Source: Nitrospira sp. (GTDB taxonomy: Bacteria; Nitrospirota; Nitrospiria; Nitrospirales; Nitrospiraceae). From it: DNA of 57,486 nucleotides. The stretch lies in assembly GCA_013140455.1 (NCBI GenBank), contig JABFSU010000136.1, forward strand, positions 1 through 57,486. The letters are read 5' to 3'. Positions within the stretch are counted from its first letter, which is position 1. Every line of letters begins with the position of its first letter. Of this stretch, positions 21,575 to 42,990 are shown piece after piece. Made by a program: the position numbers and the translations under genes. The notes under the pieces were generated by a model. That model made no database searches, had not been told where the DNA came from, and worked only from the letters and a program-made list of their open reading frames with translations.

Positions 21575-22431
21575 GGCAGTTTCAATATCCACGTCATCAG
21601 CCGGTCCGACCACCGGTCCGGAAGCAGTTTGATCATCAGCGCACGGACCTTCGCATCTCTTCCCACAAGATACCGGGTCTTCGGACGGGAGGCCGTCAAG
21701 GCATGGACGACGGCATCCGAGACGGCATCGGGGGGAATCGCCCGCGCCGCCACCTCAGCCACGCGCGCCCTGACGCCGGCAATTACCCCCGCATAGAGGG
21801 CCTTCAATTCTTCCGACGTGACCGTCTCTAGTTCTTCGGCCTTCGCACCGGACTTCGTCCAGATCGGCGTCGCAATCGCGCCCGGCTCCACAATGGAGAC
21901 CTGAATCCCCCACTGCTGCACTTCAAGGCGCAAGGCATCCGTCAACGCTTCCAATGCAAACTTCGATGCCGAGTACGGCCCCATCACCGGCATCGCGGCG
22001 CGGCCGGCAATCGATCCCATGTTGACGATACGCCCGCGCCCCTGACGAAGCAACGGAAGAAACGCCTGGGTCACGGCGACCTGCCCGATCACATTCACCT
22101 CAAACTGCCGGCGCAGATCGGCAATCGGCACGGCCTCCAGCGGACCGACCACCGCAATGCCCGCGTTGTTCACTAATCCGGCCAACCCTCGTGGCCCGAC
22201 CTGCTCGGCAATCTGCCGCCGCGCCTGTTCGATCGAGCCCGCATCGGTGACATCCAGCAAAATAGGCTGGAGTCGAACCGATCCCTGCGCCTTCAGAGCT
22301 TCACCATCCTCGATCCGGCGGACCCCGGCGAATACCGTAAAGCCGAGCCGGTCGAGATGCCATGCGCAAGCTGCGCCGATGCCCGTCGACGCGCCGGTGA
22401 TCACCACTGCCTTGCCATTGCCATTCAACAT
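21568..22431 (-). CDS. Short-chain dehydrogenase/reductase (classical SDR)
   Basis: 287 residues. Cofactor motif TGASTGIG near residue 13, NNAG at about 90, catalytic Ser in NMGSIAGRA, and YSASK as the catalytic Tyr-Lys pair. After the core comes a 30-residue C-terminal extension with a hydrophobic WSDRLMTWILKL, as in retinol-dehydrogenase-like SDRs. An NAD(P)-dependent oxidoreductase of unknown substrate. Confidence 0.88.
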   Translation of the reverse strand: MLNGNGKAVVITGASTGIGAACAWHLDRLGFTVFAGVRRIEDGEALKAQGSVRLQPILLDVTDAGSIEQARRQIAEQVGPRGLAGLVNNAGIAVVGPLEAVPIADLRRQFEVNVIGQVAVTQAFLPLLRQGRGRIVNMGSIAGRAAMPVMGPYSASKFALEALTDALRLEVQQWGIQVSIVEPGAIATPIWTKSGAKAEELETVTSEELKALYAGVIAGVRARVAEVAARAIPPDAVSDAVVHALTASRPKTRYLVGRDAKVRALMIKLLPDRWSDRLMTWILKLPQ

Positions 22432-22508
22432 TCCGCGGCCCCTTTAGTGAGCGACGCCGACCATAGCAGTTTTGCAAGACAGGGTCATCTCTTGCGTCCC
22501 ACGGATTC

Positions 22509-22546
22509 CAGCTCTCAGTGATCCGTCACCGGCTATCAGCTCTCAG
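22509..22546. repeat. Short direct repeat CAGCTCTCAG
   Basis: Two exact copies of the 10-mer CAGCTCTCAG at 22509-22518 and 22537-22546, with a third partial TCTCAGCAC at about 22559. This looks like a decayed interspersed repeat in a 350-base stretch (22443-22792) with no other gene before the microprotein. Confidence 0.4.
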
Positions 22547-22590
22547 CCACCTATTCGGTCTCAGCACTCGTCCATGGTGGATCACTCTAG

Positions 22591-22615
22591 ATTCAAGGGG
22601 AATTATATTAGGTTC
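22591..22615 (+). promoter_or_regulatory. Putative enhancer (UAS) for the first sigma-54 promoter
   Basis: A dyad ATTC-N5-GAAT (22591-22603) runs into TAT-N-TTAGGTTC, ending 124 bases before the -24 GG at 22739. The second sigma-54 promoter has the same arrangement (23797-23821): of 25 aligned bases 20 match, and 15 of 16 over 22600-22615. Shared sequence at this distance is what an enhancer-binding activator site would look like. Confidence 0.55.
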
Positions 22616-22737
22616 CATCCACCCTGCCTTACGCGCCGACCGTCATATCAGGTTGCCCGCGCAACAAAATCGCAAACGCCTTACCAGTATTGGTGTTTGT
22701 TCACTGCCGTGGCGATCGTGCAAGCCCGGCATCTACA

Positions 22738-22753
22738 TGGCCCGCACATTGCA
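22738..22753 (+). promoter_or_regulatory. Sigma-54 (-24/-12) promoter
   Basis: TGGCCCGCACATTGCA, with GG and GC exactly 10 bases apart. It matches the TGGCACG-N4-TTGCA consensus at all but one specified position. The start point would be near 22764, about 29 bases before the ATG of the 28-residue microprotein. Confidence 0.78.
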
Positions 22754-22792
22754 CAGAGTGCATAGCATCACTCCAGAAAAAAGGAGAACGCC

Positions 22793-22879
22793 ATGGACTT
22801 CGGACTCATCTTACTCGCCACCAACACTCTCATGGCCATCTTCATCTTCTTTGTTCTGAACTTGATCTGGAAGCAATAG
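22793..22879 (+). CDS. 28-residue single-pass membrane microprotein (copy 1)
   Basis: A short reading frame with a strong AAGGAG ribosome site at the right distance. The product starts MDFGLILLATN, has one hydrophobic span (about residues 4-25) and ends LIWKQ. A second gene at 24032 encodes a product of exactly the same length with 14 of 28 identical residues, including MDF at the start, N11, MA at 14-15 and LIW at 24-26, so this is a real protein family. It lies behind a sigma-54 promoter and 137 bases before a receiver-domain gene with which it is probably cotranscribed. Membrane topology and function are unknown; microproteins of this size often modulate a larger membrane complex. Confidence 0.8.
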   Translation: MDFGLILLATNTLMAIFIFFVLNLIWKQ

Positions 22880-23015
22880 AGGAATCAGAACATGCCGAGA
22901 GAACCGTTGGGGGAAATCAACCACCCATGAACAAGATACCGGACCATGATGGCGCGAGGTGGAGCCGACCAGCGGGCACCCGGCTAACACAGCCAAAGGA
23001 AGGAGGAAGGGCAAC

Positions 23016-23495
23016 ATGACATACGAAACAATCCTGGTCGTCGACGACAGTCCCGACATTCGAGAAATAACTCGTATGACGCTCAGTCGTCAAGGCTATG
23101 AAGTTTGGCTGGCTCCGGACGGCAACAGTGCCATCCAGTTGATGAGCCAACCGGTACTGGCCAGCGCCGTCAGCACCGTGATCTGCGACCTGGCCATGCC
23201 CAATGGCAACGGAATGGACCTCATCGCCTACCTCCAGAGACATCATCCGGCCATCCCCATCATTGTGTGTAGCGGCGCCGACGACAAAGAATTCCTTGAA
23301 GGAATTATCCAGCAAGGAGTGGGCGACTGGATGCGGAAACCCGTATCGCGGGACGTTCTTGTGCAAAAAGTCAGAACCGCCGTCCATCTCTTCACGCTCA
23401 GGACACGGCAGGACTCTGAGGACGGACCTTCACAGGCTTCAGTCGCAAATCCAAGAACGGCCTCTCCCTCAGAGATTGAGCCATTACAGGAATAG
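23016..23495 (+). CDS. Single-domain response regulator (receiver only)
   Basis: 159 residues from ATG 23016, behind an AAGGAGGAAGGGC ribosome site. A complete CheY-like receiver: acidic pair VVDDS (Asp10-Asp11), phospho-acceptor Asp58 in ICDLAMP, conserved Ser in VCSGAD and Lys in MRKPVS. Residues after ~130 are a polar, disordered-looking tail with no output domain. Being downstream of the sigma-54-controlled microprotein gene suggests joint expression. The cognate kinase is unknown; it could be the one at 42991. Confidence 0.9.
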   Translation: MTYETILVVDDSPDIREITRMTLSRQGYEVWLAPDGNSAIQLMSQPVLASAVSTVICDLAMPNGNGMDLIAYLQRHHPAIPIIVCSGADDKEFLEGIIQQGVGDWMRKPVSRDVLVQKVRTAVHLFTLRTRQDSEDGPSQASVANPRTASPSEIEPLQE

Positions 23496-23796
23496 CGGGA
23501 GAAGACCACCGACCGGTGAGACGGAAGGTCGCCCAGGCCTCTCTCGCGCAACAGACGTAAGAGGCACACAGTCTATCGCGTCCAATTCAACAGCCTGCTG
23601 AGGCCGATGCAGAGTCGCACGCCTGTGCAGAATATTGAAACCCTCTCCATATCCAGCCGGCCACCATCCTTCGTTTGCGATCAACTCCCAGGCCCTACGA
23701 ACCGCGCCGCCGATCATAAACGGATCAAAGCCTTTCGGCTCTGCAACACCAAGCTGCAGCAAACCTTCTAGTGCCGTTGGCACTGAATCGAAAGTG
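23496..23796. other. Gene-poor stretch with a short hairpin
   Basis: About 300 bases with no convincing gene. A perfect 6-bp hairpin AGTGCC-GTT-GGCACT is at 23770-23784, without a T tract. A minus-strand GTG-started frame of 99 codons (23783-23484) starts inside this hairpin and runs into the 3' end of the receiver gene; it has no ribosome site and no family I know. Confidence 0.4.
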
Positions 23797-23821
23797 ATTC
23801 AGCCTGAATTATTTTAGGTTC
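23797..23821 (+). promoter_or_regulatory. Putative enhancer (UAS) for the second sigma-54 promoter
   Basis: ATTC-N5-GAAT (23797-23809) followed by TAT-N-TTAGGTTC, ending 118 bases before the -24 GG at 23939. It is near-identical to the element at 22591-22615. A further inverted repeat TGAATC-N6-GATTCA (23784-23801) overlaps its left edge. Confidence 0.55.
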
Positions 23822-23937
23822 ATTGATGCAAGGCTCATCAGTGCAGTAGCAAACCTCTGAGTGAATCCTTGCGCTCGACTCGCTCGCCAATCGAGCAATC
23901 TACTCCTGTTCAGACAGACGCGACACTCCAGCATGAA

Positions 23938-23953
23938 TGGTCCACCCCTTGCA
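23938..23953 (+). promoter_or_regulatory. Sigma-54 (-24/-12) promoter
   Basis: TGGTCCACCCCTTGCA: TGG at -24 and TTGCA at -12, with the obligatory 10 bases between GG and GC. It precedes the second 28-residue microprotein gene, with a leader of about 68 bases. Confidence 0.72.
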
Positions 23954-24031
23954 CAATGGCTCAGTCATCGACTGATGCGACTGAAAGAGAAAGAAGCCGA
24001 GCAGCCATGAGGGGATAGAAAGGAGCACATC

Positions 24032-24118
24032 ATGGATTTCACACTCCTCCTCCTACTTTCCAACATATTCATGGCCTGCTTCATCTACCTGATCGTGCGG
24101 CTGATTTGGCAGGAGTAG
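24032..24118 (+). CDS. 28-residue single-pass membrane microprotein (copy 2)
   Basis: Strong AAAGGAG ribosome site, then 28 codons. The product starts MDFTLLLLLSN, has a single membrane span and ends LIWQE. It is paralogous to the 22793 gene (same length, 14 of 28 identical, conserved MDF, N11, MA, FI, LIW), and both sit behind sigma-54 promoters with the same upstream element. No partner gene follows directly on this strand; the next clear plus-strand gene starts at 25030. It probably arose by local duplication of promoter plus gene. Confidence 0.8.
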   Translation: MDFTLLLLLSNIFMACFIYLIVRLIWQE

Positions 24119-24384
24119 TGCGCTCAGATCGGGACAGCCTAAACGCTGCATGCAAGAACGCACCGCAAGAACCGAGGGAAGGCATCAGAAAAAGATGACA
24201 CCGTTTGAATCAACCCCTCGCCTCAGCATGGAGCCGACCAGCGTCATCCGACTCATACGCGGAGTCGAATCACTCCCGCAGTCCGGATCCAACCCACTCC
24301 TGGCTGCAGCCGTCGCCCCCACGCCGAGGACACAGGAGCCGCCTCTTCGCTTCATACCCGGAGGGACGGCTCCTTCAAATCAGA

Positions 24385-24786
24385 CTAAGGCAAGACAGAG
24401 ACGTCGCAGGAAGGAAAGAGGAATGGACGGACATCAGGATGCACCTGCGAAGGGTCGAGACCCTGGAGCAGAGATCCGGAACGGTGATCTGAGTGGAGCA
24501 GAATGGAACCACCGTCATCTTGGAGCAGGCGAAGCGACGAGACGTGCCAGGCGGTCCCGGTTACGGAACGAAGGAGGCTGGTCGACTCCCCTTCATCTTC
24601 CGTGATGGGCCTTGATGAAACAGAGATCACGACGGGCAAAGAGACAAAGTCCAGAACCTTGGCAGGCAGCACATCACGCCGATCCAGCTGGAGGCAGCCG
24701 GTCAGCAAAGAGAAACCGAGCAGGATCAAGATCGATCGATGAAGAGACTGAAGGCAAACGCGCTTAAGAATAGACATTACTTCCAT
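24385..24786 (-). CDS. Putative lipoprotein
   Basis: Up to 133 residues (a second ATG lies at 24777). The N-terminus is a convincing lipoprotein signal: a basic KRVCLQSLHR region, hydrophobic SILILLGFSLL, and lipobox LLTGC. The mature part (VLPAKVLDFVSLPVVISV...) matches nothing I know. The ribosome site is weak and the gene lies alone on the minus strand between plus-strand genes, so it could be spurious. The stretches on each side (24119-24384 and 24787-25029) hold nothing else I can support. Confidence 0.42.
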   Translation of the reverse strand: MEVMSILKRVCLQSLHRSILILLGFSLLTGCLQLDRRDVLPAKVLDFVSLPVVISVSSRPITEDEGESTSLLRSVTGTAWHVSSLRLLQDDGGSILLHSDHRSGSLLQGLDPSQVHPDVRPFLFPSCDVSVLP

Positions 24787-25029
24787 ATCGGAAGTCCGAT
24801 AGAGATCTGAAGCCGGATGAAAAGGGTCAGGATTGTCCTGATACCGCAGTGCGGGGGAACACGTTGAGACTCAGTCCTGTGAGAATATTCCTGGTCAGGG
24901 CTCATCGGCCCTATCCCAAGGGGTTATTGCGCAAAATGTGTGGGAAGCCTAGCTAGAAGGCACCAGCAACCGAACGGTACGAAAGTCCTCGGTCGGTTTG
25001 GTCGAATGCGACAGAAGGAGATGCCACGG

Positions 25030-26214
25030 ATGGCGCTTCAAATTCGCAGGGCACATCGATTCCTTCCTCCTTCCCAAGATCACATCGCACTCCGTGCATC
25101 CGACCGCACAAACAGGGAAAAGGTTCTTGGAACCTTTTCCATATCACTGGTCGCTGGGGGGCTCGTTCTATGTTTATGCCAGCTTATCTCGGCCTCCAAC
25201 GCCGAAAGTGCGGAAAAGTGGCTTATCTATACACAAGGTATTACCTTGCCAGGTGGACAACATCTTCTGGGATATTCCTACTACGGATACTTTGAAGTTC
25301 CAGGTGATCAAGTAGGTTCGCTCGACATTCTAGGCAGGACGAATGACATCTGGGATAAGATCAATAAGCCGACCTCAGCAATCGAAAGAAACAAGAAGCC
25401 CACCATCACCCGAAACGATAATGCGTACATGGTGGCCTTCTTTGATCCAAGCCTGGACAAGCCTCTAATCTGCACAAAAACTGAGGCCGCCTTCAAACAA
25501 TCCGATGCACCCGTCGTTCCCCCAGAAACCACGGTCGCTGTCAAAACAATCGTAGCTGGTGCAACTGCGGCGGCTAAAGCCTTCCCCTGCGACCTTGAAA
25601 CAAGGGACAAAGGCAATACCAAGATTACATTCACGGTCGAGAAGCAGCTCACCGATACGACTAAAGGAGAGCTGCTGAAAGGAACCGTCCTCGTTCACGA
25701 ACTCTATCGGTTCCGCATCATCTCTGGGCCCGTGTTTTCTTCACTCATCACAAAGAACCGCACATTCAGCACCATTACAAATGCAGCAGGACAGCAAGTA
25801 ATCTCCTCGTCCAGAGCGAATGACTCCCCCGCAAACTTTCCTGTCTTCTTGAAAACCTACTGGGCTCGTGATGGACGAGATATCCTGGTTGACCCTACGC
25901 ATTGGTACAGCCCTGAGCGGTTCAACCCCATCATTGGGATCAATCTCGTCAATAACCCATTGAAGAACTTTTACGTCGGCCTGAGCTACGAACCGATTCT
26001 TGGAGTGGATATCGTGGCTGGTGCACATTTCGCAAAGATAGATCAACTCGCTGGAGGCTTCTCCGATGGCCAAGTGGTGCCAGCCGGGACGCAACCACCC
26101 ACCACGAGCAAGTTTCTCACAGGTGGGTTTGTCGGCGTCACAGCTGATGTGGGAGTCATCGGCTCGTGGCTGGGATCTCAGATCACAAAAACGATTAAGG
26201 AAGGGTTTCGCTAG
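25030..26214 (+). CDS. Hypothetical exported protein, 394 residues
   Basis: I chose ATG 25030 because AAGGAG lies nine bases upstream; ATG 25021 and a longer open frame are alternatives. A signal or membrane anchor lies at about residues 35-60 (GTFSISLVAGGLVLCLCQLISASNA after a long basic N-region). The mature part has no family I recognise; the C-terminal third (FYVGLSYEPILGVDIVAGAH, GGFVGVTADVGVIGSWLG) has the look of membrane-inserted beta strands. The first of four exported proteins in AT-richer DNA (25030-28379), so this block may be transferred. Confidence 0.72.
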   Translation: MALQIRRAHRFLPPSQDHIALRASDRTNREKVLGTFSISLVAGGLVLCLCQLISASNAESAEKWLIYTQGITLPGGQHLLGYSYYGYFEVPGDQVGSLDILGRTNDIWDKINKPTSAIERNKKPTITRNDNAYMVAFFDPSLDKPLICTKTEAAFKQSDAPVVPPETTVAVKTIVAGATAAAKAFPCDLETRDKGNTKITFTVEKQLTDTTKGELLKGTVLVHELYRFRIISGPVFSSLITKNRTFSTITNAAGQQVISSSRANDSPANFPVFLKTYWARDGRDILVDPTHWYSPERFNPIIGINLVNNPLKNFYVGLSYEPILGVDIVAGAHFAKIDQLAGGFSDGQVVPAGTQPPTTSKFLTGGFVGVTADVGVIGSWLGSQITKTIKEGFR

Positions 26215-26270
26215 GACCAGCGACAAATGTGTCTGACACCTCTCACAGTTCAGATGGGCTTGAGGACGGC

Positions 26271-27158
26271 ATGAAGAGACTACCAAAGTTGTTGACCACA
26301 CTTTCTCTCGCAATTCAGCTTGTCTATGCGTCAGTCGTCTTCTCTCAACCGGCTATTTTGATCGCCCCTGAGCTGAAGCCCGTCCCTCGCACCGGGCCAC
26401 TGCCCCCAATTCCGTTGCCCCCAAAGCCTAAGGTTCTTCCAAACCCTTTTCCTTTTTCCACCGATCATAAGGAAATCCGAAGAGCTCCTTTTTACATTCC
26501 ACCAAACGAAGGGTTTGCCGTCAGTTTTTGTGACGACTACTATTGCGTCCTCAGCGCCAGGTCCTTCAAGCAACTAGAGGCCGGATGGTGCTGGAACGCC
26601 GCGGCACAGAGTGTCATGCGCTACCATGGCTACTATTTTTCTCAGTGCACCATTGCCAACACCACCTACCCCCCGCCCTCCTCTTTCACCTCCCCACAGC
26701 CTTGTTGCTTGCAAGACGGTAGACCAGATCCTGCTACCAACTGTAGGTTGATAGGAAGCCCTGGCGGCCTTCCACAAGATGTTTTCAATGCATTCGGATT
26801 CGATTATTGGCCTGCTATTGGTCAGCTTGCTACCCCAAGCTGGAGCTATGCAGTGGGCGAGATTTTGAATTATCGGCCTTTTATCGCCTGGCTTGATCCA
26901 CGCATCAGCGGTCTTTGGGCCCATACTTATGTCGTGCATGGCTTTAACAAACTGAATAATGCGATGGAGCTTAGGCTCAGCGATCCTCAGCAGGGCCCTT
27001 CAGTCATTAATCCGCAGAACCCTCCGTGGGCGGAAGATTGGTTTCAACCTTGGGACAACATACTTAGATCGCATAGTAGTGGGCAACTATTGCCAGTTGG
27101 CTTGGGCGACACGAATAATGAGCACAAGGGGGATATCGCCGGGATCGAACCACAGTGA
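26271..27158 (+). CDS. Exported papain/C39-like cysteine protease
   Basis: 295 residues from ATG 26271 (GAGG upstream), with a signal peptide (LLTTLSLAIQLVYASVVFS) and a Pro-rich linker. The protease signature is GWCWNAAAQSVMRYHG with nucleophile Cys107, then His218 in WAHTYVVHGFN and a following LSDPQQG that may supply the Asp/Asn. This resembles peptidase_C39-like/AvrRpt2-type papain folds. Extra Cys pairs (PCCLQ, TNCRL) suggest disulphides, so activity outside the cytoplasm. It lies between two unknown exported proteins and may process one of them or a nearby secreted protein; that is inference. Confidence 0.75.
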   Translation: MKRLPKLLTTLSLAIQLVYASVVFSQPAILIAPELKPVPRTGPLPPIPLPPKPKVLPNPFPFSTDHKEIRRAPFYIPPNEGFAVSFCDDYYCVLSARSFKQLEAGWCWNAAAQSVMRYHGYYFSQCTIANTTYPPPSSFTSPQPCCLQDGRPDPATNCRLIGSPGGLPQDVFNAFGFDYWPAIGQLATPSWSYAVGEILNYRPFIAWLDPRISGLWAHTYVVHGFNKLNNAMELRLSDPQQGPSVINPQNPPWAEDWFQPWDNILRSHSSGQLLPVGLGDTNNEHKGDIAGIEPQ

Positions 27159-28576: not shown

Positions 28577-31573
28577 ATGAAGAGAATAGGCTTGAAAGAT
28601 GGGAGCCGACACCTGCACATGCATGACGTGGCCCCCTTTCTCGCGAGCCTCGTCATATTCCCTTTTTACTTTCTCACTCTCGGCCACGCTCAAATCTCCC
28701 CGCCCATCACATCCTCTGGTCTGAACACGGTCGTGACAACGAACGGCAATGTTCACAGTATCACTGGCGGCACACGGCCTGGCAACGGAACAAACCTCTT
28801 TCACAGTTTCGGTGAATTTGGCGTCCCGACAAATAGCATCGCCAGCTTTCTGAATGAGACGGCGCTCCCAACAAACAACATTCTCGGTCGCGTGACCGGC
28901 GGTAATCCCTCGAACATCTTCGGCACCGTGCAAACCACCGGCTTCGATAATGCAAATCTGTTTCTCATGAATCCAGCCGGCATCATATTTGGGCCCAATG
29001 CCACATTGAATATCGGCGGGTCCGTCACCTTCACCACCACCACCGCGGATTACATCAGGCTCGCAACTGACAATGTGCGTTTCAACGCGATTCCCAACGC
29101 AGCAGCCGACGCCCTCCTAAACACGGCTCCGGTCGCCGCCTTCGGGTTTCTCGGATCGAATCCAGGGACCATTACCGTCCAGGGTAGCCAGCTTTCAGTC
29201 TCAGAAGGTCAAGGCATCTCGCTCGTTGGGGGAAACATTACGGTTCAGGCAGGCACGTTGGATGATGGAACGGTCCAGCCGACTCGGCTCTCAGCTCCCG
29301 GCGGTCAGATCAATCTCGCCAGTGTCGCATCGCCTGGCGAGATTGCCGCCGATAGTTTCCTGCCATCACCAGGCACGACGATGGGACATATCAACCTTTC
29401 CCAAGGATCATTACTGGATGTCTCAGCAGATGCCGCTGGGGCGGTCCGGATACGAGGCGGTCAGTTTGTGATGGATCAAGCCACGATTTCCACCGACACG
29501 GCCAATGTAAATGGCACGCCGGTTGCGATCGACATTAATGTCACCGGTGATATGTCCATCTCGAACGATGGAGCGCCTGCGCTCACTGCAAAATCTTCTG
29601 GTTCAGGTGACGCCGGAGAGATTCGCATTGTGTCCGCCAACTTGACGGTGACATCAACGGCTCTAGACTCAACGCTCGCCCTGATCGATACCCATACCTC
29701 AGGGATGGGCCGAGCGGGGAAGGTCAGTATCACAACCGGCAATCTCGAAGCAGGCAGCGGCGTTTGGTTCATCGATAGCGGAACATCGGCAGCGGGGCAT
29801 GGCAACGATGTCATAATCGATGCAACCAGCGCGCACTTTAACGACGTGAATATCAGCACCGGGGATTTCCGCGCGCACAACCAGGATATCTTTGATGCGA
29901 CAGGCTTTGCCGGAAATATTCGGCTAACGGCGGACTCTCTTAACTTGGTAACGACAGTTCTATCTACAGATTCCTTCCTGGGGCGAGGAGGAGAAAGTAC
30001 ACTGACAGCCAGAACCATTGAGATGACGAATGGTTTGATCGGATCTCTTTCCCTCGGCGGCAGCGGAGCTGTCACCATTGCAGCCGATAGCATACGGATG
30101 ACCCGAGCACAAATTGAGACAGAGACCGCATTCGAACCCGGGCGCGCCATTACTCTTACCGGGAAGGTAATCGAACTCAGAGACGGAACCTCTATACGGA
30201 ACCAGACCTCTGGCAATGCGGATGCCGGCAATATCCTTGTGGCAGCCACAGACCGTCTTACCCTCTCCGACCAGCCCACCACGAGCAGACCCACGGGGCT
30301 CTACACCAACTCGTTAGGCGTCGAAGGCGAACCTCTGGATACGCTCGGGGGAAAATCAGGCTCAATCACGATTACCACCCCTCTGCTTGAAATGAGTGGG
30401 GGGGCACGGATCAACACCACCACGGAAACGAGCGGACGGGGTGGCGATGTCACGATCGTCGCGACCGACCTTCTCTCCATTTCAGGAGAACGGCGCCTCC
30501 CGATCGCCGAAGACGAACTATCCCTTGGTGCCACGAATCCTGGTGGAATATTCACCCGCACTGTCGGCAACCAGTACTGTTCAGGGCCTTGCGGCAACGC
30601 TGGACATATCTCAATCACCACCGGTTCCATGAACTTGAACAGCGGTGCAGCAATCGATAGTGGAACTAGCAGCACCGGACAAGGTGGCGCGATTGGAATT
30701 AACGCAACGAACGCCATCACTCTATCTGGCACGCTAGCTGACGGCACACCAGGTGGCATCTTCAGTCGCGCAGTTGGAACCTCCCAGGATTCGGGCTCAG
30801 GTGGCAACATCGCTCTCACTGCCGGTCAATCAGTGAGCATCTCAGACGGCGCGTCGGTTTCCGCGAGCAGCACCGGCCCCGGCAACGCAGGGAACATTGC
30901 GATCAATGCCGGCCAACAATTTGAAATGCGCAACAGCTCTGTGAAGACGGAAGCGGCGCAGGCGAGCGGCGGGAATATCGACATTCAGGCCATCGACCGT
31001 ATCCGACTGGTGAATAGCTCCATCAGCACGTCCGTCCTCGGCGGCGCGGGCAGCGGTGGAAATATTACCATCGATCCCAATGTCGTCATCTTGCAGAACA
31101 GCCAGGTGATCGCGCAGGCCTTCCAGGGTTCCGGAGGGAACATTTCCATCACGACTCCCCTCTTCCTGGCCGATGCAAGCAGCCTGGTCGATGCCTCGTC
31201 GCAGTTCGGCTTGAACGGCACGGTGAATATCCAGAGTCCGACCTCGAACCTGGCAGGCACGGTCTCCTCACTCCCCTCTTCGCTTCGCCAGGTGCAGTCC
31301 CTCCAGACCGGCCGTTGCGCCGCATTGGCCGATAGCCGATCCAGCAGCCTGATCGTCGCCGGGCGCGATAATCTTCCGGCGGAACCGGGCGGCTGGTCGC
31401 CCAGTCCCTTCGCGCTCATGGGCGAAGAGACCGATTCGCTTGCCATCGCGTCACCGCCGGTCGCCACCATGACCGCATCAGCCGATGCCCCGGTTTCGTT
31501 GCGCCGGTTGACCCCCGCAGGCTTTCTGACACAGCGCTTTGCGGAGAATGGATTGACTGGATGCCGAGCGTAA
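28577..31573 (+). CDS. TpsA-type filamentous haemagglutinin-family exoprotein
   Basis: 998 residues. An extended signal peptide (to about residue 38, FLTLGHAQ) is followed by the TPS/haemagglutination-activity domain (GLNTVVTTNGNVHSITGG ... NLFLMNPAGIIFGPNATL), the recognition region for the TpsB pore. The rest is a long right-handed beta-helix with G-N-I-x-I and G-D-V-x-I rungs (GSITITTPLLEMSGGARI, GGNIDIQAIDRIRLVNSS). It ends in a Cys-containing segment (TGRCAALAD...; final GCRA), as in cyanobacterial-type TpsA. A surface or released adhesin or structural exoprotein, exported by the next gene product. Confidence 0.92.
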   Translation: MKRIGLKDGSRHLHMHDVAPFLASLVIFPFYFLTLGHAQISPPITSSGLNTVVTTNGNVHSITGGTRPGNGTNLFHSFGEFGVPTNSIASFLNETALPTNNILGRVTGGNPSNIFGTVQTTGFDNANLFLMNPAGIIFGPNATLNIGGSVTFTTTTADYIRLATDNVRFNAIPNAAADALLNTAPVAAFGFLGSNPGTITVQGSQLSVSEGQGISLVGGNITVQAGTLDDGTVQPTRLSAPGGQINLASVASPGEIAADSFLPSPGTTMGHINLSQGSLLDVSADAAGAVRIRGGQFVMDQATISTDTANVNGTPVAIDINVTGDMSISNDGAPALTAKSSGSGDAGEIRIVSANLTVTSTALDSTLALIDTHTSGMGRAGKVSITTGNLEAGSGVWFIDSGTSAAGHGNDVIIDATSAHFNDVNISTGDFRAHNQDIFDATGFAGNIRLTADSLNLVTTVLSTDSFLGRGGESTLTARTIEMTNGLIGSLSLGGSGAVTIAADSIRMTRAQIETETAFEPGRAITLTGKVIELRDGTSIRNQTSGNADAGNILVAATDRLTLSDQPTTSRPTGLYTNSLGVEGEPLDTLGGKSGSITITTPLLEMSGGARINTTTETSGRGGDVTIVATDLLSISGERRLPIAEDELSLGATNPGGIFTRTVGNQYCSGPCGNAGHISITTGSMNLNSGAAIDSGTSSTGQGGAIGINATNAITLSGTLADGTPGGIFSRAVGTSQDSGSGGNIALTAGQSVSISDGASVSASSTGPGNAGNIAINAGQQFEMRNSSVKTEAAQASGGNIDIQAIDRIRLVNSSISTSVLGGAGSGGNITIDPNVVILQNSQVIAQAFQGSGGNISITTPLFLADASSLVDASSQFGLNGTVNIQSPTSNLAGTVSSLPSSLRQVQSLQTGRCAALADSRSSSLIVAGRDNLPAEPGGWSPSPFALMGEETDSLAIASPPVATMTASADAPVSLRRLTPAGFLTQRFAENGLTGCRA

Positions 31574-31586
31574 GGTCGAGGCTTGG

Positions 31587-33350
31587 ATGAGGAATCACAG
31601 ATCGTTTGCGCGGCCGAGCGCAGGCATCGCTCTTCGTGCGGGGTTCGTCATGCTGCTCACGCTGACCCCTTCAGCTCTCCTGGCTCAGGCCCTTCCGCCG
31701 GTCTTCGATCCGACCGGCCGATCCGGTGAACCACCCGGTCCGCTCAAGAAGGAGTTCAGGCCGCCGGCTCCCCCGCCAAGCATGGTCCTGCCGCCGGTGC
31801 CACAGGCGCCGGATAGCGACCTGCAGCGGCAATTGGGACAGATCCGCGTTTTCGTGCACGACATCCATGTGACGGGCAACACCGTCTTTACGGAGGCGGA
31901 GATCGACCAGGTCACGAAGCCGTTCAAGGGCCGCACCCTCACGACGGATGACCTGGAGCGGCTGCGGCTGGCGCTGACCCTGCTCTACGTCAATCGAGGC
32001 TACATCACGTCGGGCGCGATTATTCCCGATCAGGACGTGACGCTCGGCGTCATCACCTATCACATCGTCGAAGGCACGGTCGCGCGGATCGATGTGGAAG
32101 GGACCGACTGGTTCCGTGACGGCTATCTGCGCGACCGGGTGGCGCTGGGCGTCAAAACGCCCTTTGCCATCACGCCGCTACAGGAACGGCTGCAACTGCT
32201 CCAGCAGGACCAGCGCCTTGAGCGCATCAACGCGGAACTCCGCCCCGGCGATCGCCGCGGGGAGAGCGTGCTGAATCTGCGGGTGAAGGAAGCCTCTCCG
32301 TGGAAAGCCTGGCTGGATTTCAATAACCATCAGACACCGGTCGTGGGCGCCGAACGGGGGCTGGCGACGATCGCACACCAAAATGTCACCGGCCACGGCG
32401 ATGCCTTCAGCTTCACCTATGGCCGGTCGCGCGGCGTGAATCCGATCATCGACACTTCCTACACGATTCCGGTGAATCGGTACGATACCACTCTGTCGGC
32501 CTACTACCGGCGTAACGATTTCCTCGTGGTCGATGAGAGCTTCCGCTTTCTCGACTTGAAGGCCGACGCTGAGATCTTCGGCATCACACTCCGCCAGCCG
32601 CTCTACAAAACGCTCACCGATGAGTTTGCCGTCGCGATCACCGGGGAACGGCTCTATAACAAGGTGACTTCCGCGTTCGACCAGGCCGGGCTCCCTTCAC
32701 TGTTCATCCCCGGCTCATCGGACACCGGCGTCAACACGGTCAGCGCGCTCCGCTTCATTCAAGAATATGTTCATCGCACGTCGAACTCGGTCATCGCTGT
32801 CCGTTCCCGCTTCTCCGTCGGGCTCGACGTGCTCGGCGCGACCAATAACTCCGGCCCGCTGCCGGACACCCAGTTCTTCTCCTGGTTGGGTCAAGTGCAG
32901 GGGTTGCAGCGACTCGACGACTGGGGGGGCGTGCAGCTGCTGGGACAGATGAGCCTCCAGCTCGCGAACGACCGCCTCTTCCCGCTGGAACAGGTGCCGG
33001 TCGGCGGACGCTTCAGTGTCCGTGGCTATCGCGAGAACACGCTCATTCGCGACAACGCGTTTCTCGCCTCCATTGAGTCCCGCATCCCGCTGCTCACGTT
33101 TCCCTCCGGCGAGCCCCGCCTCCAATTCGCGCAATTCGCCGATGTGGGCCGCGCCTGGAATGCCAAAGGCGGCACACCCGATCCGCAGACGCTGGCGAGC
33201 GTCGGATTGGGCATACGGTGGAGTCTTCTCCCTCAGGAGCGCGCACGGTTTGAACTCTACTGGGGACAACCGCTCAATCACGTTCCGCATCCGCCCGGCA
33301 ACCTGCAGGATCACGGCATCCATCTGCAGTTTGTCATGCAAGTCTTATAA
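31587..33350 (+). CDS. TpsB outer-membrane transporter (ShlB/FhaC/HecB family)
   Basis: 587 residues: signal peptide, a Pro-rich stretch, a first POTRA domain (VFVHDIHVTGNTVFTEAEIDQV), a second POTRA (GTVARIDVEGTDWFRDGYL) and a C-terminal 16-strand barrel. The family signature VRGYRENTLIRDNAFLASIE is intact, and the end is FVMQVL. It secretes the TpsA protein encoded 13 bases upstream across the outer membrane. Confidence 0.94.
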   Translation: MRNHRSFARPSAGIALRAGFVMLLTLTPSALLAQALPPVFDPTGRSGEPPGPLKKEFRPPAPPPSMVLPPVPQAPDSDLQRQLGQIRVFVHDIHVTGNTVFTEAEIDQVTKPFKGRTLTTDDLERLRLALTLLYVNRGYITSGAIIPDQDVTLGVITYHIVEGTVARIDVEGTDWFRDGYLRDRVALGVKTPFAITPLQERLQLLQQDQRLERINAELRPGDRRGESVLNLRVKEASPWKAWLDFNNHQTPVVGAERGLATIAHQNVTGHGDAFSFTYGRSRGVNPIIDTSYTIPVNRYDTTLSAYYRRNDFLVVDESFRFLDLKADAEIFGITLRQPLYKTLTDEFAVAITGERLYNKVTSAFDQAGLPSLFIPGSSDTGVNTVSALRFIQEYVHRTSNSVIAVRSRFSVGLDVLGATNNSGPLPDTQFFSWLGQVQGLQRLDDWGGVQLLGQMSLQLANDRLFPLEQVPVGGRFSVRGYRENTLIRDNAFLASIESRIPLLTFPSGEPRLQFAQFADVGRAWNAKGGTPDPQTLASVGLGIRWSLLPQERARFELYWGQPLNHVPHPPGNLQDHGIHLQFVMQVL

Positions 33351-33361
33351 GGACGAGGCCG

Positions 33362-35719
33362 ATGAGCCCTAGACGCATCCTCCTCCGCCGCACTGCATCA
33401 GGGGCCGGCTCTCGGCGCGCCGCCGGATGGATCCGCCGCTGGATCGGCCTGACACTCTTCGCACTCTCGCTCACGACCGGGGTGCAGGGGGCAACCACCC
33501 CGGATAGTCTCGACACCCTGCTGGCGCAGGGCACCGACGCCTTTCGCCGCGGCGCGTTTGAACAAGCCCTCGCCACCTGGAAAGAAGCCGCCAGGCTTGC
33601 CGGCGAACGCGGCGCGACCCGCGAACACATCCAGGCCCTCCTCGGCACCGCACAAGCGGCGCAGGCCCTCGGTCAGTCCAAGCAGGCCCTGCTCCAGCTT
33701 GATCTTGCGCTGGTGCTCTCACACAACAGCGGCGATCCGCAGACCACAGCGGGCGTGCTGGCCCAACTCGGTCGCACGTATCTCGCGGTCGGTCACCTCG
33801 ATGAAGCCGAGGAACGCCTGACCGACGCGTTGACGCTCGCCCGTCGAGACGCCTCACCTGCACTCACGGCCGCCATCTTGAACGATCTGGGCATTCTCCA
33901 CGCCCTCAGACACGAGGACGCCGAGGCGCTGGCTTCATTTCATGACAGTACGACGATTGCGCAGGACGCCGGGCTTCCCATGGTCGCGATTACCGCAAGA
34001 ATCAATGCCGCGCGCGCGGCGTTGCGGCTCGGCCAGCCACAGGACAGCCGGCTCTGGCTCGATCAATCACTCGACCAGGCCCGTGAACTGTCCCCGTCTT
34101 ACAACAAGGCCGTTGGCTTGATTAATATCGGGCTGGGCTACGGGCACCTGCGGCCGCTCCTGCCTGCCATCGGCGATGCGCTGCTCATACGAGCCGCCGG
34201 CGTGTTGCAAGAAGCGGTAGCCCTCTCGGAACGATTGGGAGATGCGCGCACCTCGTCCTATGCGCTGGGCTATCTCGGGCATCTCTACGAAACAGAACGG
34301 CGCACCGAGGAAGCGCTGCAGTTGTCCCGGCGCGCGGTATTCTCCGCACAATCCGCGGGCGTACCGGAAGCCCTTTACCGCTGGCAGTGGCAGGTGGGCC
34401 GGCTGCTGGCGTCGAGCGGCCACCTCGACGACGCCATCACCTCCTACCGGCAGGCCGCCGCCACCTTGCTGCCCATCAGACCGGAAGTGGCCCGCGCCTC
34501 CTATGAGGCGTCGACTCCGGACCAGGAGTCTGTGCGCCCCTTGTTTTTCGAACTGGCCGACCTCCTGCTCCAACGCGCCGGGTTGACGGATGACGCCCCC
34601 ACCGCACAGGCCTATCTCCTGACGGCGCGCGACGCGATCGAAGCCTTCAAAGCGGCTGAATTGCGGGAATACTTCAAGGACGAATGCGTCGATGCCCTGC
34701 AGGCCCGCATCACCAAGCCCGACCAGCTCTCCCCGACCACGGCGGTGATCTATCCCATCATGTTCGCAGACCGATTGGACATGCTCGTCAGCCTCCCGAC
34801 CGGGATGACAAGAATCACTGTGCCGATTCCTGCCGTAACATTGGCGCAGGAAGTCCGTGCGTTCCGCCGCACGGTCGAGAAACGGACGACCAGGGAATAC
34901 CTCACCCATGCCCAACAGCTCTACGACTGGCTGGTTCGACCGATCGAGGCAGACCTGACCCGCTTGCACATCAATACGCTCGTGTTTGTCCCAGACGGAG
35001 CGCTTCGCACCATTCCCCTGGCAGCCTTACATGATGGAACCGGCTTCCTCATTCAGAAATTTGCCGTGGCGCTGACCCCCGGGCTCAATCTCACGGATCC
35101 CCACCCGATTAACCGCGAGACCGTCCGGTTTCTGTCCACCGGACTGACACAGGCCGTCCAGGGATTTCCGGCGCTTCCGTACGTGGCCGAAGAAATGGGG
35201 GCAATCCACGATCTCTATCGCGGCGATCAACTGCTCAACAGCGAGTTTCAGACAGCCCGACTGGAGCAGGAATTGCTGGACGGTCAGTTCGGCGTGTTGC
35301 ACATTGCCACGCACGGAAAGTTTTCGACGGATGCGAACGAGAGTTTTCTGGTGACGTTCGACGGAAAACTCACCGTGAATCAGCTGGACCGGCTGATCGG
35401 CCTGTACCGGCTCCGGCAGGAACCGCTCGAACTGCTCACCCTCAGCGCCTGCCAGACCGGCGTCGGCGATGATCGCGCCGCCCTCGGCCTCGCGGGAATC
35501 GCCATCAAAGCCGGCGCGAGAAGCGCGATCGCCACGCTGTGGTTCATCAATGATGAAGCTTCTGCCGCGCTGATTTCAGAATTCTATCGGCAGCTCCGGA
35601 ATCCCTCGATTTCCAAAGCGGTCGCATTGCAACAGGCTCAGGCGAAGCTGTTGGCTGATCGGGTCTATGAGCATCCTGCTTACTGGTCACCCTTCTTGTT
35701 GCTCAATAACTGGCTATAA
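33362..35719 (+). CDS. TPR-CHAT protease
   Basis: 785 residues. A signal or membrane segment is likely at about residues 20-42 (IGLTLFALSLTTGVQGATT). Tetratricopeptide-like repeats follow over about residues 45-420 (GAFEQALATWKEAARLAGERG, GHLDEAEERLTDALTLARR). The C-terminal CHAT (caspase/separase-like) domain has the catalytic pair His651 (LHIATHGKF) and Cys697 (TLSACQTGVGDDRAALGLAG). CHAT proteins cleave specific protein substrates. It sits 11 bases after tpsB, and a role in processing the exoprotein or another envelope substrate is inferred from position only. Confidence 0.9.
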   Translation: MSPRRILLRRTASGAGSRRAAGWIRRWIGLTLFALSLTTGVQGATTPDSLDTLLAQGTDAFRRGAFEQALATWKEAARLAGERGATREHIQALLGTAQAAQALGQSKQALLQLDLALVLSHNSGDPQTTAGVLAQLGRTYLAVGHLDEAEERLTDALTLARRDASPALTAAILNDLGILHALRHEDAEALASFHDSTTIAQDAGLPMVAITARINAARAALRLGQPQDSRLWLDQSLDQARELSPSYNKAVGLINIGLGYGHLRPLLPAIGDALLIRAAGVLQEAVALSERLGDARTSSYALGYLGHLYETERRTEEALQLSRRAVFSAQSAGVPEALYRWQWQVGRLLASSGHLDDAITSYRQAAATLLPIRPEVARASYEASTPDQESVRPLFFELADLLLQRAGLTDDAPTAQAYLLTARDAIEAFKAAELREYFKDECVDALQARITKPDQLSPTTAVIYPIMFADRLDMLVSLPTGMTRITVPIPAVTLAQEVRAFRRTVEKRTTREYLTHAQQLYDWLVRPIEADLTRLHINTLVFVPDGALRTIPLAALHDGTGFLIQKFAVALTPGLNLTDPHPINRETVRFLSTGLTQAVQGFPALPYVAEEMGAIHDLYRGDQLLNSEFQTARLEQELLDGQFGVLHIATHGKFSTDANESFLVTFDGKLTVNQLDRLIGLYRLRQEPLELLTLSACQTGVGDDRAALGLAGIAIKAGARSAIATLWFINDEASAALISEFYRQLRNPSISKAVALQQAQAKLLADRVYEHPAYWSPFLLLNNWL

Positions 35720-35795
35720 AGGATCTCGACCCTATGCTAGAGTACGATTCATGCATGGATATTCACCAAAAAGCCTCAGCAAGAGGGGGTGCACG

Positions 35796-36554
35796 GTGAA
35801 ACCCACGTTGTTGTTTTACATCATCTGTACAATGCCCCTGGGCTTGACACTGGTGGAACCGACGCAGGCCACGGCAGGATCCGGGCCGTCCGACGCCCCT
35901 CACGTCGCCTCCCCTGATGATCTGTCGCTGCCGATCTATACCCCGCCCAGGAGATTTTCGCCTCGAGCGCGGGTCGGCGGGGAAATGCGTGGGACCGGCG
36001 GTAGCGACCCTGAAATTCAAGCCCTCGTCCCCGATCATGTCGGCCTGACGATCAATCAAACGCCGGTGCTGAATTGGTTTCTTTCCAAACCCACGGCCTA
36101 TACCGTTCGTTTCACGCTGATCGATAATCGCTCGATCAAGCCGGTGCATGAAGCCCCCATCCCTTCTCCGACGAAGGCAGGAATTCAGACGATTAATCTG
36201 AAGGAGATGGGACTGACGCTCGAACCGGACGTGCAGTATCGCTGGTACGTCTCTGTGATTCGTAACCCTGACTCGCCGTCGCAGGATATCGTGGCGGGGG
36301 GAGTCATTGAGCGCTGTGAATTCAATGCCTGTCTCGTCGAAGCAGGCCCCCACCTCACCTGCAGCACGCAGAGCGTGCAGGACAACGCCCGCCGGGGATT
36401 CTGGTACGACGCCATGGCCTGTCTCTGCGCGCTCATCGATGCCCAGCCCACCGACGCCCCGCTCAGACGCATGCGCGCCGCGCTGCTGAAACAAGTCGGT
36501 CTTCACGGGGTGGCCGAGTGGGATCTTCGTTCCCTTACGACGCCGACCCGATAG
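35796..36554 (+). CDS. DUF928-domain exported protein
   Basis: 252 residues from GTG 35796, preceded by AGAGGGGG at six bases; an in-frame ATG at 35751 is the alternative. Signal peptide (LLFYIICTMPLGLTLVEPTQA). DUF928 features: PPRRFSPRARVGGEMRGTGG, then PEIQALVPDHVGLTINQTPVLNWFL and a beta domain with PDVQYRWYVSVI, plus four Cys in the C-terminal part. DUF928 proteins of unknown function occur next to TPS and CHAT genes in cyanobacteria, which is the arrangement here. Probably the last gene of the TPS operon. Confidence 0.85.
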   Translation: MKPTLLFYIICTMPLGLTLVEPTQATAGSGPSDAPHVASPDDLSLPIYTPPRRFSPRARVGGEMRGTGGSDPEIQALVPDHVGLTINQTPVLNWFLSKPTAYTVRFTLIDNRSIKPVHEAPIPSPTKAGIQTINLKEMGLTLEPDVQYRWYVSVIRNPDSPSQDIVAGGVIERCEFNACLVEAGPHLTCSTQSVQDNARRGFWYDAMACLCALIDAQPTDAPLRRMRAALLKQVGLHGVAEWDLRSLTTPTR

Positions 36555-36623: not shown

Positions 36624-36658
36624 TCACATTTTCCGCATACCGGCAGGCGAATCCTTTC

Positions 36659-36676
36659 CGATCCACTTTCGGATCG
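36659..36676 (+). promoter_or_regulatory. Dyad upstream of the third sigma-54 promoter
   Basis: CGATCC-N6-GGATCG, perfect 6-bp arms, ending 118 bases before the -24 GG at 36794. It differs in sequence from the 22591/23797 elements but sits at the same distance, as expected for an activator site. Confidence 0.4.
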
Positions 36677-36707
36677 CATCTGATCCACTCTCATCGGCTC
36701 TCGCAGT

Positions 36708-36792: not shown

Positions 36793-36808
36793 TGGCATAC
36801 GGCTTGCG
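36793..36808 (+). promoter_or_regulatory. Sigma-54 (-24/-12) promoter
   Basis: TGGCATACGGCTTGCG: TGGCA at -24, TTGC at -12, exactly 10 bases between GG and GC. Predicted start near 36819, about 37 bases before the ATG of the 57-residue membrane protein. Confidence 0.72.
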
Positions 36809-36855: not shown

Positions 36856-37029
36856 ATGACACAAGAATTGCTTATCCTGGCGTTGTTAACAGGACTGGTA
36901 GGAATTTCGTGGCTCATGGTTCTCTCGATCACCCGCGACGATCGCCGTACTGACAAAGGGGTTCATGCTCATGACACAACAGATCTCGAAAAAGACCGGG
37001 CACCATCGCATCGAGGGATGGCAGCCTGA
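36856..37029 (+). CDS. 57-residue single-pass membrane microprotein
   Basis: ATG 36856 with CAGGAG nine bases upstream. Residues 4-25 form one hydrophobic span (ELLILALLTGLVGISWLMVL), followed by a charged tail (ITRDDRRTDKG...). No family recognised. The 3' end overlaps the next gene by about 60 bases in another frame. It is the first gene behind the sigma-54 promoter at 36793. In architecture it resembles the 55-residue protein at 46965-47132, with weak similarity in the membrane span. Confidence 0.68.
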   Translation: MTQELLILALLTGLVGISWLMVLSITRDDRRTDKGVHAHDTTDLEKDRAPSHRGMAA

Positions 37030-37425: not shown

Positions 37426-39438
37426 ATGAACGCAGAGCTGAGACGATCAGGCCATCCGATGCTGGCCACGCTGCTGACCGTGAGTCTGAGCGGCCTGGCG
37501 CAGACGGAATCCCCCGCCGCGGACCCAACCAACGTGACCGACTCGGCTCCTCACATCGACGCCATCGAATTGATCAAAGAAGAAGAAAGCGTGGGTATTG
37601 CCTCACGCTATGAACAACCGATCTCGCAAGCGCCGGCCAACGTATATGTGATCACGGACGAGGACATCCGGCATTCGGGAGCCACCGACATCCCTACCCT
37701 CCTCCGTCGTATCCCCGGGATGGAAGTGATGCAGATGAACGGTGCGGACTTTAACGTCAGTGTTCGGGGGGACAATCAGGACAATGCCAACAAGCTGTTA
37801 GTCATGGTTGACGGACGCTCAATCTATCTTGACGTTCAAGGAACTATGAACTGGAAACTCCTGCCGGTCACACTACCGGAAATTAAACGAATCGAGGTGT
37901 TGAAAGGACCCGCTTCTGCGGTATGGGGGTTCAACGCTTTCGACGGCGTGATCAATATCATCACGAAATCCCCGGAGGAAATGAAAGGCACCACCCTGCA
38001 ATTCGGTGGCGGGGGATACGGCACCCTCATGGCCTCCGCGATCCAGGCCGGCACCGTGGACAAGTTCGGCTATCGTCTCTCCATTGGGCACAATCAGAAC
38101 GCGTCCTGGAGCAACAGCAGTTCCTTGGCCTTCCGGAACAATTTGCTCAACGTCTTAACCGAATATGCCCTTGCACCGGAATCCAAAATCAAGATCTCCG
38201 GCGGAATTGTGGACGCCAATGCGTTTAACTCCCTCGTGGGCCAGGATGTCATGATCTCCCAACGCCCCGCACAGAGCTACGCCAGCATAAGCTACGAACG
38301 CTCGAATTTCTTTGTGCGGGCGTTCTGGAATCGGCTTGATATCACCGCGAATCCCCTGTTCCAGCCTCCACTGGCCCCGTTTCTAAGCCTGACCAGTAGA
38401 GATGGCTCTCCCACACAAACCTTTGTGGGCAATACCTATAACATCGACGTTCAGCATTCCCTCGCCTTGTGGCCTGGAAACCGTGTGACCTATGGACTGA
38501 ACTATCGGCTCAATACTCTTTCGAGCAACACCCTCTCGCAGGACAGCTCCGAGAACAGACTGGGATTTTTCGTCCAGGATGAATGGAAGATAGCTCACCC
38601 GGTCACAATCGTGGCCGGCGTTCGTTACGACCTCAACACCTTTATGGGTCCGACAATCAGCCCCCGGATCGCCCTCCTCTACGCACCATCCCCAGATCAT
38701 ACGTTTCGATTCTCTGGCTCTGTGGCGTATCGGCCGCCGGCACTGCTCGATAAGAAAGAGGATGTGAGAGTGACGACGAACCCACCCTTGCCATCAGTAA
38801 CGACGTCCGTGGTGGGAGGCCAAAGTCTCTCGCCTGAACAAATCATCTCCTACGAAGCAGGCTATCAGGGGTGGTATTGGCAGCACCGGTTCCGGATACG
38901 TGCGGACGCCTTTTATAATCACATCTCCGATCTCATCAGTGTTCGCAATCAATCCGCCACCCTCGCAACCTTTAGCAACGACACCGGCTCTGCCGATATC
39001 TATGGCGGCGAAGCCGGAGTGGAATTCCTCGCCACCAAGTGGCTGACCGGGTTTGCCAATTACTCCTACCAGGAGATTCACCAGACGTTTACAGGGCGCG
39101 TCCAACGTGCCGGTCCCCGCAATAAGTTCAATGTCGGCTTGCGCGGTGAGTGGGACAACGGACTCAGCGCCGAAGCGATCTTTCATTACTACGGATCGGC
39201 CAGCTATCCCCCGGGTCAGTCGTTCACGACCTTCTCTCAAGCCGGCCTCGTCTCCTTGCCGAACCCGAACGTCGGTTCCTACAATCTCTTGAACTTGCGC
39301 GCCGGCTACCGGTTTTGGCACGACCAGGCCGAAGTGGCCGTGTCCGCATTCAACGCCCTCAACGACAAGCACCAGGAGTATCCTCTTGGTGAGGCCATCG
39401 GCAGCCGGGTGATGGGCTGGTTGACGGTGAGGTTCTAA
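37426..39438 (+). CDS. TonB-dependent outer-membrane receptor
   Basis: 670 residues. The plug domain is at about 60-180 (ISQAPANVYVITDEDIRHSGATDIPTLLRRIPGMEV; VSVRGDNQDNANKLLVMVDGR; IEVLKGPASAVWGFNAFDGVINIIT). A 22-strand barrel follows, ending in a terminal Phe (MGWLTVRF). It imports a siderophore, vitamin or other ligand with TonB energy; the ligand is not deducible. An N-terminal extension before the plug could hold a weak TonB box (IDAIELI). It lies upstream of the sensory cluster 39579-46864 and may supply or be regulated by it. Confidence 0.92.
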   Translation: MNAELRRSGHPMLATLLTVSLSGLAQTESPAADPTNVTDSAPHIDAIELIKEEESVGIASRYEQPISQAPANVYVITDEDIRHSGATDIPTLLRRIPGMEVMQMNGADFNVSVRGDNQDNANKLLVMVDGRSIYLDVQGTMNWKLLPVTLPEIKRIEVLKGPASAVWGFNAFDGVINIITKSPEEMKGTTLQFGGGGYGTLMASAIQAGTVDKFGYRLSIGHNQNASWSNSSSLAFRNNLLNVLTEYALAPESKIKISGGIVDANAFNSLVGQDVMISQRPAQSYASISYERSNFFVRAFWNRLDITANPLFQPPLAPFLSLTSRDGSPTQTFVGNTYNIDVQHSLALWPGNRVTYGLNYRLNTLSSNTLSQDSSENRLGFFVQDEWKIAHPVTIVAGVRYDLNTFMGPTISPRIALLYAPSPDHTFRFSGSVAYRPPALLDKKEDVRVTTNPPLPSVTTSVVGGQSLSPEQIISYEAGYQGWYWQHRFRIRADAFYNHISDLISVRNQSATLATFSNDTGSADIYGGEAGVEFLATKWLTGFANYSYQEIHQTFTGRVQRAGPRNKFNVGLRGEWDNGLSAEAIFHYYGSASYPPGQSFTTFSQAGLVSLPNPNVGSYNLLNLRAGYRFWHDQAEVAVSAFNALNDKHQEYPLGEAIGSRVMGWLTVRF

Positions 39439-39578
39439 ATGGTTTCCTTAAGTGGTATATCTCTACTATGCTTGCGCGATTCCCGTGACGGTACCGCGCA
39501 AACACACCGACACTCCGCCTTGGGCAACGGTGAGTCAAGCCGTTGCCTATTACGAAGGCTTCACTGACTGAGGGCGCT

Positions 39579-42978: not shown

Positions 42979-42990
42979 GACCTGATTCCT

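Follow-up and report, generated by a model that had tools for sequence, protein, structure and literature searches.

Two short genes behind sigma-54-type promoters

The DNA analysed here is a stretch of 57,486 nucleotides from Nitrospira sp. (assembly GCA_013140455.1, contig JABFSU010000136.1), referred to throughout as the window. It carries two very short genes, which we call microproteins 1 and 2, in the following setting:

22738–22753, + strand: -24/-12 promoter of microprotein 1 (TGGCCCGCACATTGCA), conserved in orthologues
22793–22879, + strand: microprotein 1, 28 amino acids (MDFGLILLATNTLMAIFIFFVLNLIWKQ)
23019–23495, + strand: receiver-only protein, 158 amino acids (PF00072, E = 1.6e-23), at the same place in loci of genera g1 and g17
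23938–23953, + strand: -24/-12 promoter of microprotein 2 (TGGTCCACCCCTTGCA), conserved in orthologues
24032–24118, + strand: microprotein 2, 28 amino acids (MDFTLLLLLSNIFMACFIYLIVRLIWQE)
24385–24786, - strand: small lipoprotein-like gene, convergent with microprotein 2 and recurrent beside microproteins (8 loci)

A preliminary description of this DNA had reported both open reading frames (ORFs), each with a strong ribosome site and an upstream -24/-12 element of exact GG-N10-GC spacing. The coordinates it gave are correct, 14 of the 28 residues (50%) are identical between the two products, the ribosome sites are present (AAAAAAGGAG and GAAAGGAG) and the spacing at 22738 and 23938 is exact. 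The gene after the first copy, described as encoding a receiver domain, does so and nothing more; it keeps its position in two genera and is probably co-transcribed with microprotein 1. The lipoprotein-like gene has no match in Pfam or NCBIfam.

A family of 28-residue proteins in Nitrospiraceae

Searching 175 genomes with a model built from the two window peptides revealed full-length, 28-residue homologues in Nitrospiraceae, with matches in 32 genomes at E ≤ 1 and in around 22 at E < 1e-3. A model rebuilt from 30 members found no homologue outside Nitrospiraceae among 396 genomes of the phylum. The family comprises no fewer than 34 members, spread over four genera of Nitrospiraceae and carried as loose arrays of one to five copies per genome; there are indeed two copies here, but the 'pair' originally proposed is merely the local copy number. 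A narrower alignment search for related loci returned N. moscoviensis NSP M-1 (L074), Nitrospira sp. CR1.3 (L072) and one Nitrospiraceae isolate, the first two being among the named carriers. In N. moscoviensis the microprotein occupies 2725432–2725515 of NZ_CP011801.1, and its start codon (ATG) is preceded by a -24 element at a distance of 75 nt. The genomes of relatives are partly fragmentary and not independent observations, and ORF calls around related loci are mechanical.

The family consensus is MDFxxxLxxxNxLMAxxIYxVVxxIWQ[DE]. Of the residues that had been predicted to be conserved, MDF, N11, MA and IW are so in the homologue alignment: M1 and A15 are invariant, D2, L7, N11, I18, I25 and W26 nearly so, the C-terminal end is mostly Q-D/E and length is nearly constant. 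No member has a net charge outside the range 0 to -3, the acidic ends are conserved, and the conserved positions cluster on a single face of the helix (moment p = 0.0012). Conservation at the amino-acid level spans the four genera despite many synonymous changes, and pooled pN/pS ratios of 0.14–0.36 (within orthologue groups and among the copies of genus g15) indicate purifying selection; a lack of homologues with dN/dS below 1, which would have refuted the original proposal, was not encountered.

No Pfam or NCBIfam model credibly covers the family and no Rfam family matches its DNA; weak Pfam and NCBIfam matches to Adeno_E3, DUF2842 and CedA2 (best E 0.005) were dismissed as fortuitous similarity between hydrophobic helices. 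The titles and abstracts that we searched contain no description of the family or of the regulon set out below, which is not proof of novelty.

Promoter conservation

Matches to a loose -24/-12 consensus are no more frequent in the window than expected by chance (20 versus 21.6), so a test of conservation was required. Of 34 microprotein genes, 32 have the core TGG-N8-TTGC, taken from the literature, no more than 175 nt upstream; among the 267 other ORFs of these loci the number is 4 (p = 2e-36, a nominal value because related genomes are not independent). The preliminary description had predicted such elements ahead of homologues, and it is on this conservation that the case for both predicted promoters rests, without start-site or expression data. 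In a matrix scan of 323 kb, nearly all strong sites preceded microproteins and six lay elsewhere; because the matrix was built from the microprotein promoter sites themselves, the scan is partly circular. One of the six sites led to a divergent, 23-residue microprotein copy in L051, which had escaped the protein search.

Homologues, selection and promoter conservation thus support the view that these are real, conserved, sigma-54-associated microproteins, with membrane insertion inferred. Sigma-54 control of a tiny membrane protein had been called unusual; the control is supported, but 'unusual' has to be softened, because the phage-shock (Psp) regulon is a sigma-54 precedent with somewhat larger small membrane proteins.

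A tandem upstream element shared by three promoters

Phylogenetic footprints revealed a conserved block upstream of both microprotein genes. Across 32 promoters, GAATC/GATTC half-sites number 51 in two 20-nt bins 120–160 nt upstream of the -24 element, where about 4 are expected, and are mostly arranged as two dyads 21–22 bp apart. An activator site at a sigma-54 promoter should lie 80–200 bp upstream, a position that the half-sites at -120 to -160 satisfy, in the absence of binding data. The window contains three such putative tandem activator elements, the third of them ahead of a further -24/-12 site:

22579–22615, + strand: tandem element of microprotein 1 (GGATC-N6-GATTC-N5-GAATT-N6-GGTTC), conserved in four close relatives
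23785–23821, + strand: tandem element of microprotein 2 (GAATC-N6-GATTC-N5-GAATT-N6-GGTTC)
36649–36686, + strand: third tandem element, with 0–4 mismatches in most relatives examined
36793–36808, + strand: -24/-12 site of the third promoter (TGGCATACGGCTTGCG)

At up to three mismatches, these are the only occurrences in the whole 3.8-Mb genome, and each stands before a -24/-12 site, the third at a distance of 107 nt. The genome-wide frequency comes from this search, and so from one genome. In 1.15 Mb of related loci we identified 68 distinct tandem elements, 62 of them with a -24/-12 core no more than 150 nt away (6 expected), and the reversed DNA of the same loci yielded none. Because this DNA was chosen around the loci, the count of 68 speaks to linkage, not to genome-wide frequency. 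In relatives without the MDF microproteins, the tandem element and a sigma-54 site precede two-partner secretion (TPS; filamentous-haemagglutinin) genes or an operon of a binding protein and a kinase.

Several variants were also seen. In genus g14 (L075, L076, L079 and L080), GTATC/GATAC replace the GAATC/GATTC half-sites, which suggests from sequence that activator specificity may have shifted there. Four TPS loci without microproteins (L085:10148, L087:8713, L091:5046 and L094:3036) have a conserved sigma-70-like promoter (TTGACT...TATACT) besides the sigma-54 site. The stretch separating the two is also conserved; it could code for a short peptide (PRLLKCTM) or for an RNA, and similar words occur in L047–L049. 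Two microprotein copies (L044:14473 and L051:6876) are decaying; the former has lost both the -24 GG and W26, which is what joint decay of promoter and protein would produce. Listed with these are L047:8523, L048:1845 and L049:1488, where conserved sigma-54 and enhancer sites occur without a recognisable microprotein. In L053 (5458–5739), the kinase–activator pair is directly followed by a 92-residue ORF that begins like a microprotein (MDFILLLIVANSLVAACVYFIISRIW), continues into a long tail and has a sigma-54 site to itself. A short AT-rich element that forms half of the tandem site had a third match inside a coding region (L003), which was judged to be chance.

The surrounding TPS locus and signalling operon

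The genes downstream of the microproteins fall on either side of the third promoter:

26229–27158, + strand: C39-like peptidase homologue (PF13529, E = 6e-4; weak, below the Pfam cut-off)
28577–31573, + strand: TpsA, filamentous-haemagglutinin-type exoprotein (PF05860, E = 3.4e-42; TIGR01901)
31587–33350, + strand: TpsB, TPS outer-membrane transporter (PF03865, PF08479)
33362–35719, + strand: TPR-CHAT protein (PF12770, E = 3.7e-56)
35667–36554, + strand: DUF928 protein, ORF295 (PF06051, E = 9.7e-34)
36856–37029, + strand: second small membrane protein, 57 amino acids (family MTQEL...LLxGLxGLxW)
37426–39438, + strand: TonB-dependent receptor (PF00593, PF07715)
39543–41999, + strand: receiver-PAS protein (PF00072 plus PAS models)
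42004–42978, + strand: periplasmic binding protein (PF04392, E = 1.2e-24)
42991–45309, + strand: sensor histidine kinase (HAMP-GAF-HisKA-HATPase), with orthologues beside TPS loci across the family
45425–46864, + strand: NtrC-family activator (PF00158, E = 1.9e-69)

TpsA, with its TPS domain, adjoins TpsB, with POTRA and ShlB domains, as the definition of two-partner secretion requires; the window's TpsA gene lacks a strong sigma-54 site of its own. The product of 45425–46864 has the features of the NtrC family, namely a receiver, an AAA+ domain with a GAFTGA-type loop (here GAYTGA) and a Fis-type helix–turn–helix. The 57-residue protein has no Pfam match. It belongs to a family of 50–62 residues, named here after its MTQEL motif, that heads the TonB/kinase/activator operon, mostly behind the same tandem element, in 13 microprotein genomes (for example, L146:6088, L149:4748, L150:7862, L153:2295 and L155:7652); in genus g14 a shorter version (MELIMGGLLVG) takes its position.

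The order from TPS genes through the third promoter to the MTQEL, TonB, kinase and activator genes is broadly kept across genera. A kinase orthologue lies 13–37 kb downstream of the microproteins, on the same strand, in 12 of 12 genomes with long enough contigs. The exception is G066: its microproteins and its kinase sit on separate contigs, and the 7.5 kb downstream of the microproteins contain no TPS gene. The preliminary description had captured the microproteins and their promoters; what it missed was the shared tandem element, the linkage to TPS, kinase and activator genes, and the third promoter at 36793. TPS presence was rejected as a predictor of microproteins, since TPS genes occur in 115 of the 175 genomes, far more than have microprotein matches. 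Because microproteins are missing from most TPS/kinase loci of the family, they are not essential to such loci.

The same tandem element stands before both microprotein genes and the MTQEL operon in the window, and before TPS or kinase genes in relatives, which argues for a local sigma-54 regulon around the TPS locus. We are highly confident, without expression or binding data, in the joint conclusion that both 28-residue ORFs are genuine members of a new family of single-pass proteins of the inner membrane (a location that is inferred) and that they belong to this regulon. Given that the element marks one local regulon, the activator at the end of the locus is the economical candidate for its switch, with autoregulation. 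It is the probable driver of all three promoters, an inference from linkage in a genome that encodes sigma-54 and about 25 activator-domain proteins, some two dozen of them other than this one.

Possible roles of the microproteins

Specific helix pairing is suggested by the one conserved face, which carries an Asn in mid-membrane and an Ala that never varies, and we tentatively assign the microproteins an accessory or feedback role, although this falls short of an even chance. Versions that place them at the sensor or at export cannot be separated, and there is no evidence for one specific partner.

At the sensor, a microprotein would bind the transmembrane part of the kinase and damp (or boost) signalling, as MgrB does with PhoQ (PMC8404706). 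We regard this as possible rather than likely. The microproteins appear to be targets of the activator that the locus kinase probably controls, they consist of a single helix with one conserved face, the kinase operon is headed by a second small membrane protein, and the microprotein-like ORF of L053 comes immediately after kinase and activator. MgrB is regulated by its own two-component system; activator sites and linkage fit such an arrangement here, and the cognate pair is merely inferred. However, the kinase occurs in far more genomes than the microproteins, evidence of binding is absent, and up to five paralogues per genome would be unusual for a feedback subunit.

Somewhat more doubtful is a role as an accessory membrane subunit that helps to export or process the TPS exoprotein along with exported enzymes encoded nearby (subtilase, C39-like peptidase, haem peroxidase). 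In 10 loci, TpsA is found about 3–7.5 kb downstream of the microproteins and on their strand, and subtilase, peptidase or peroxidase genes occur in between or close by. Yet two-partner secretion requires only TpsA, TpsB and Sec, and the microproteins are absent from most TPS loci of the family.

The size, hydrophobicity and multicopy arrays of the microproteins would also suit a type I toxin or other membrane-depolarising peptide, with arrays like those of Ibs and Ldr, or a stress peptide like YohP (27 amino acids), production of which lowers the proton-motive force (PMC12719787). We disfavour this reading and think it improbable, without excluding it. Such peptides often have basic flanks, whereas the microproteins are neutral to acidic with conserved acidic ends; their ribosome sites are strong, their regulation is that of an adhesin locus and Rfam offers no match. 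No sigma-70-like promoter, antisense or otherwise, was found on either strand of 22400–25100, a search that did not cover other promoter types. That the ORFs are non-functional, or a leader or RNA element, with the promoters serving the receiver and TPS genes, has in its favour the decayed copies and the several genomes with the same promoter and upstream element before TPS or kinase operons and no microprotein, but is very hard to reconcile with near-constant length and with selection on amino acids across four genera.

A proposed switch for a surface programme

The explanation that we favour combines the family, the TPS-locus regulon, the signalling sequence and helix pairing; as a whole, we consider it reasonably likely, though well short of secure. 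On this view, the microproteins stand at the head of a Nitrospiraceae locus, itself conserved, for the production and control of a TPS exoprotein (filamentous haemagglutinin). An extracellular or periplasmic signal may be read by the binding protein and histidine kinase (42004–45309), which would phosphorylate the NtrC-type activator. The activator would then bind the tandem GAATC-N6-GATTC dyads 120–160 nt upstream and open the sigma-54 promoters of each microprotein and, by autoregulation, of the operon that runs from the MTQEL gene through the TonB receptor and kinase to the activator. Through the face L7/N11/M14-A15/I18/I25-W26, the microproteins are predicted to pair with one of the locus's larger membrane proteins; they would most probably serve the sensor, or export, as an accessory or feedback subunit, both partner and effect being inferred.

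More broadly, we lean only slightly towards the view that this is an undescribed Nitrospiraceae sigma-54 signalling system, with its own kinase–activator pair, a dedicated tandem GAATC-N6-GATTC enhancer and small single-pass membrane proteins of at least two families (the 28-residue MDF arrays and the 50–62-residue MTQEL proteins) as regulatory parts of a TonB receptor/TPS surface programme. Nitrospira rank among the dominant nitrite oxidisers of soils, waters and treatment plants, and to our knowledge little is known about the control of their surface adhesins. The locus offers a defined, testable switch (kinase, activator, enhancer and sigma-54 promoters) for a surface exoprotein programme, together with a clean 28-residue membrane protein family whose conserved Asn–Ala helix face invites a search for partners. 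Conserved promoter and enhancer pairs can, moreover, expose genes far below the usual length limits of annotation.

Comparison with known systems

As in other TPS loci, TpsA (PF05860) adjoins TpsB (ShlB/POTRA), and to these the window adds CHAT, DUF928, TonB receptor and kinase/activator genes and the sigma-54-linked small membrane proteins. In the enterobacterial Psp regulon (PspF, PspB/C/D/G), too, small inner-membrane proteins are expressed with the help of sigma-54 and an enhancer-binding protein. The Psp proteins are, however, larger than 28 amino acids and PspF has no receiver domain, whereas the microproteins are linked to a TPS adhesin locus; no Psp genes were seen among their annotated neighbours. 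KdpF, CydX and other tiny membrane subunits share the size (about 28–40 amino acids) and the single helix; curated KdpF and CydX models matched none of 30 microprotein members, and no Kdp or cytochrome bd genes are among the annotated neighbours.

Among small membrane proteins, MgrB (PMC8404706) and YohP (PMC12719787) are functional analogues. MgrB–PhoQ/PhoP and similar kinase regulators provide the likeness of a tiny single-pass membrane protein under two-component control; unlike them, the microproteins are 28 residues long, under sigma-54, present as several paralogues and without a demonstrated partner, and no kinship with a curated family was seen. A transcriptome study of N. moscoviensis (PMC6606698) mentions sigma-54 regulators only near nxr genes. 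The nearest regulatory analogue is PrsK/PrsR–RpoN control of PEP-CTERM surface proteins (PMC9850573), which likewise joins sigma-54, an NtrC-type activator and surface proteins in environmental bacteria; the Nitrospira targets differ, being a TPS haemagglutinin locus and microproteins. The PrsR model TIGR02915 (cut-off 502.6) was not reached by the activators of L053 (399.7) and L046 (430.4), the window's own activator not having been scored directly. Comparative genomics has ascribed to sigma-54 the control of the bacterial exterior (PMC3162934), a role that the Nitrospira regulon fits.
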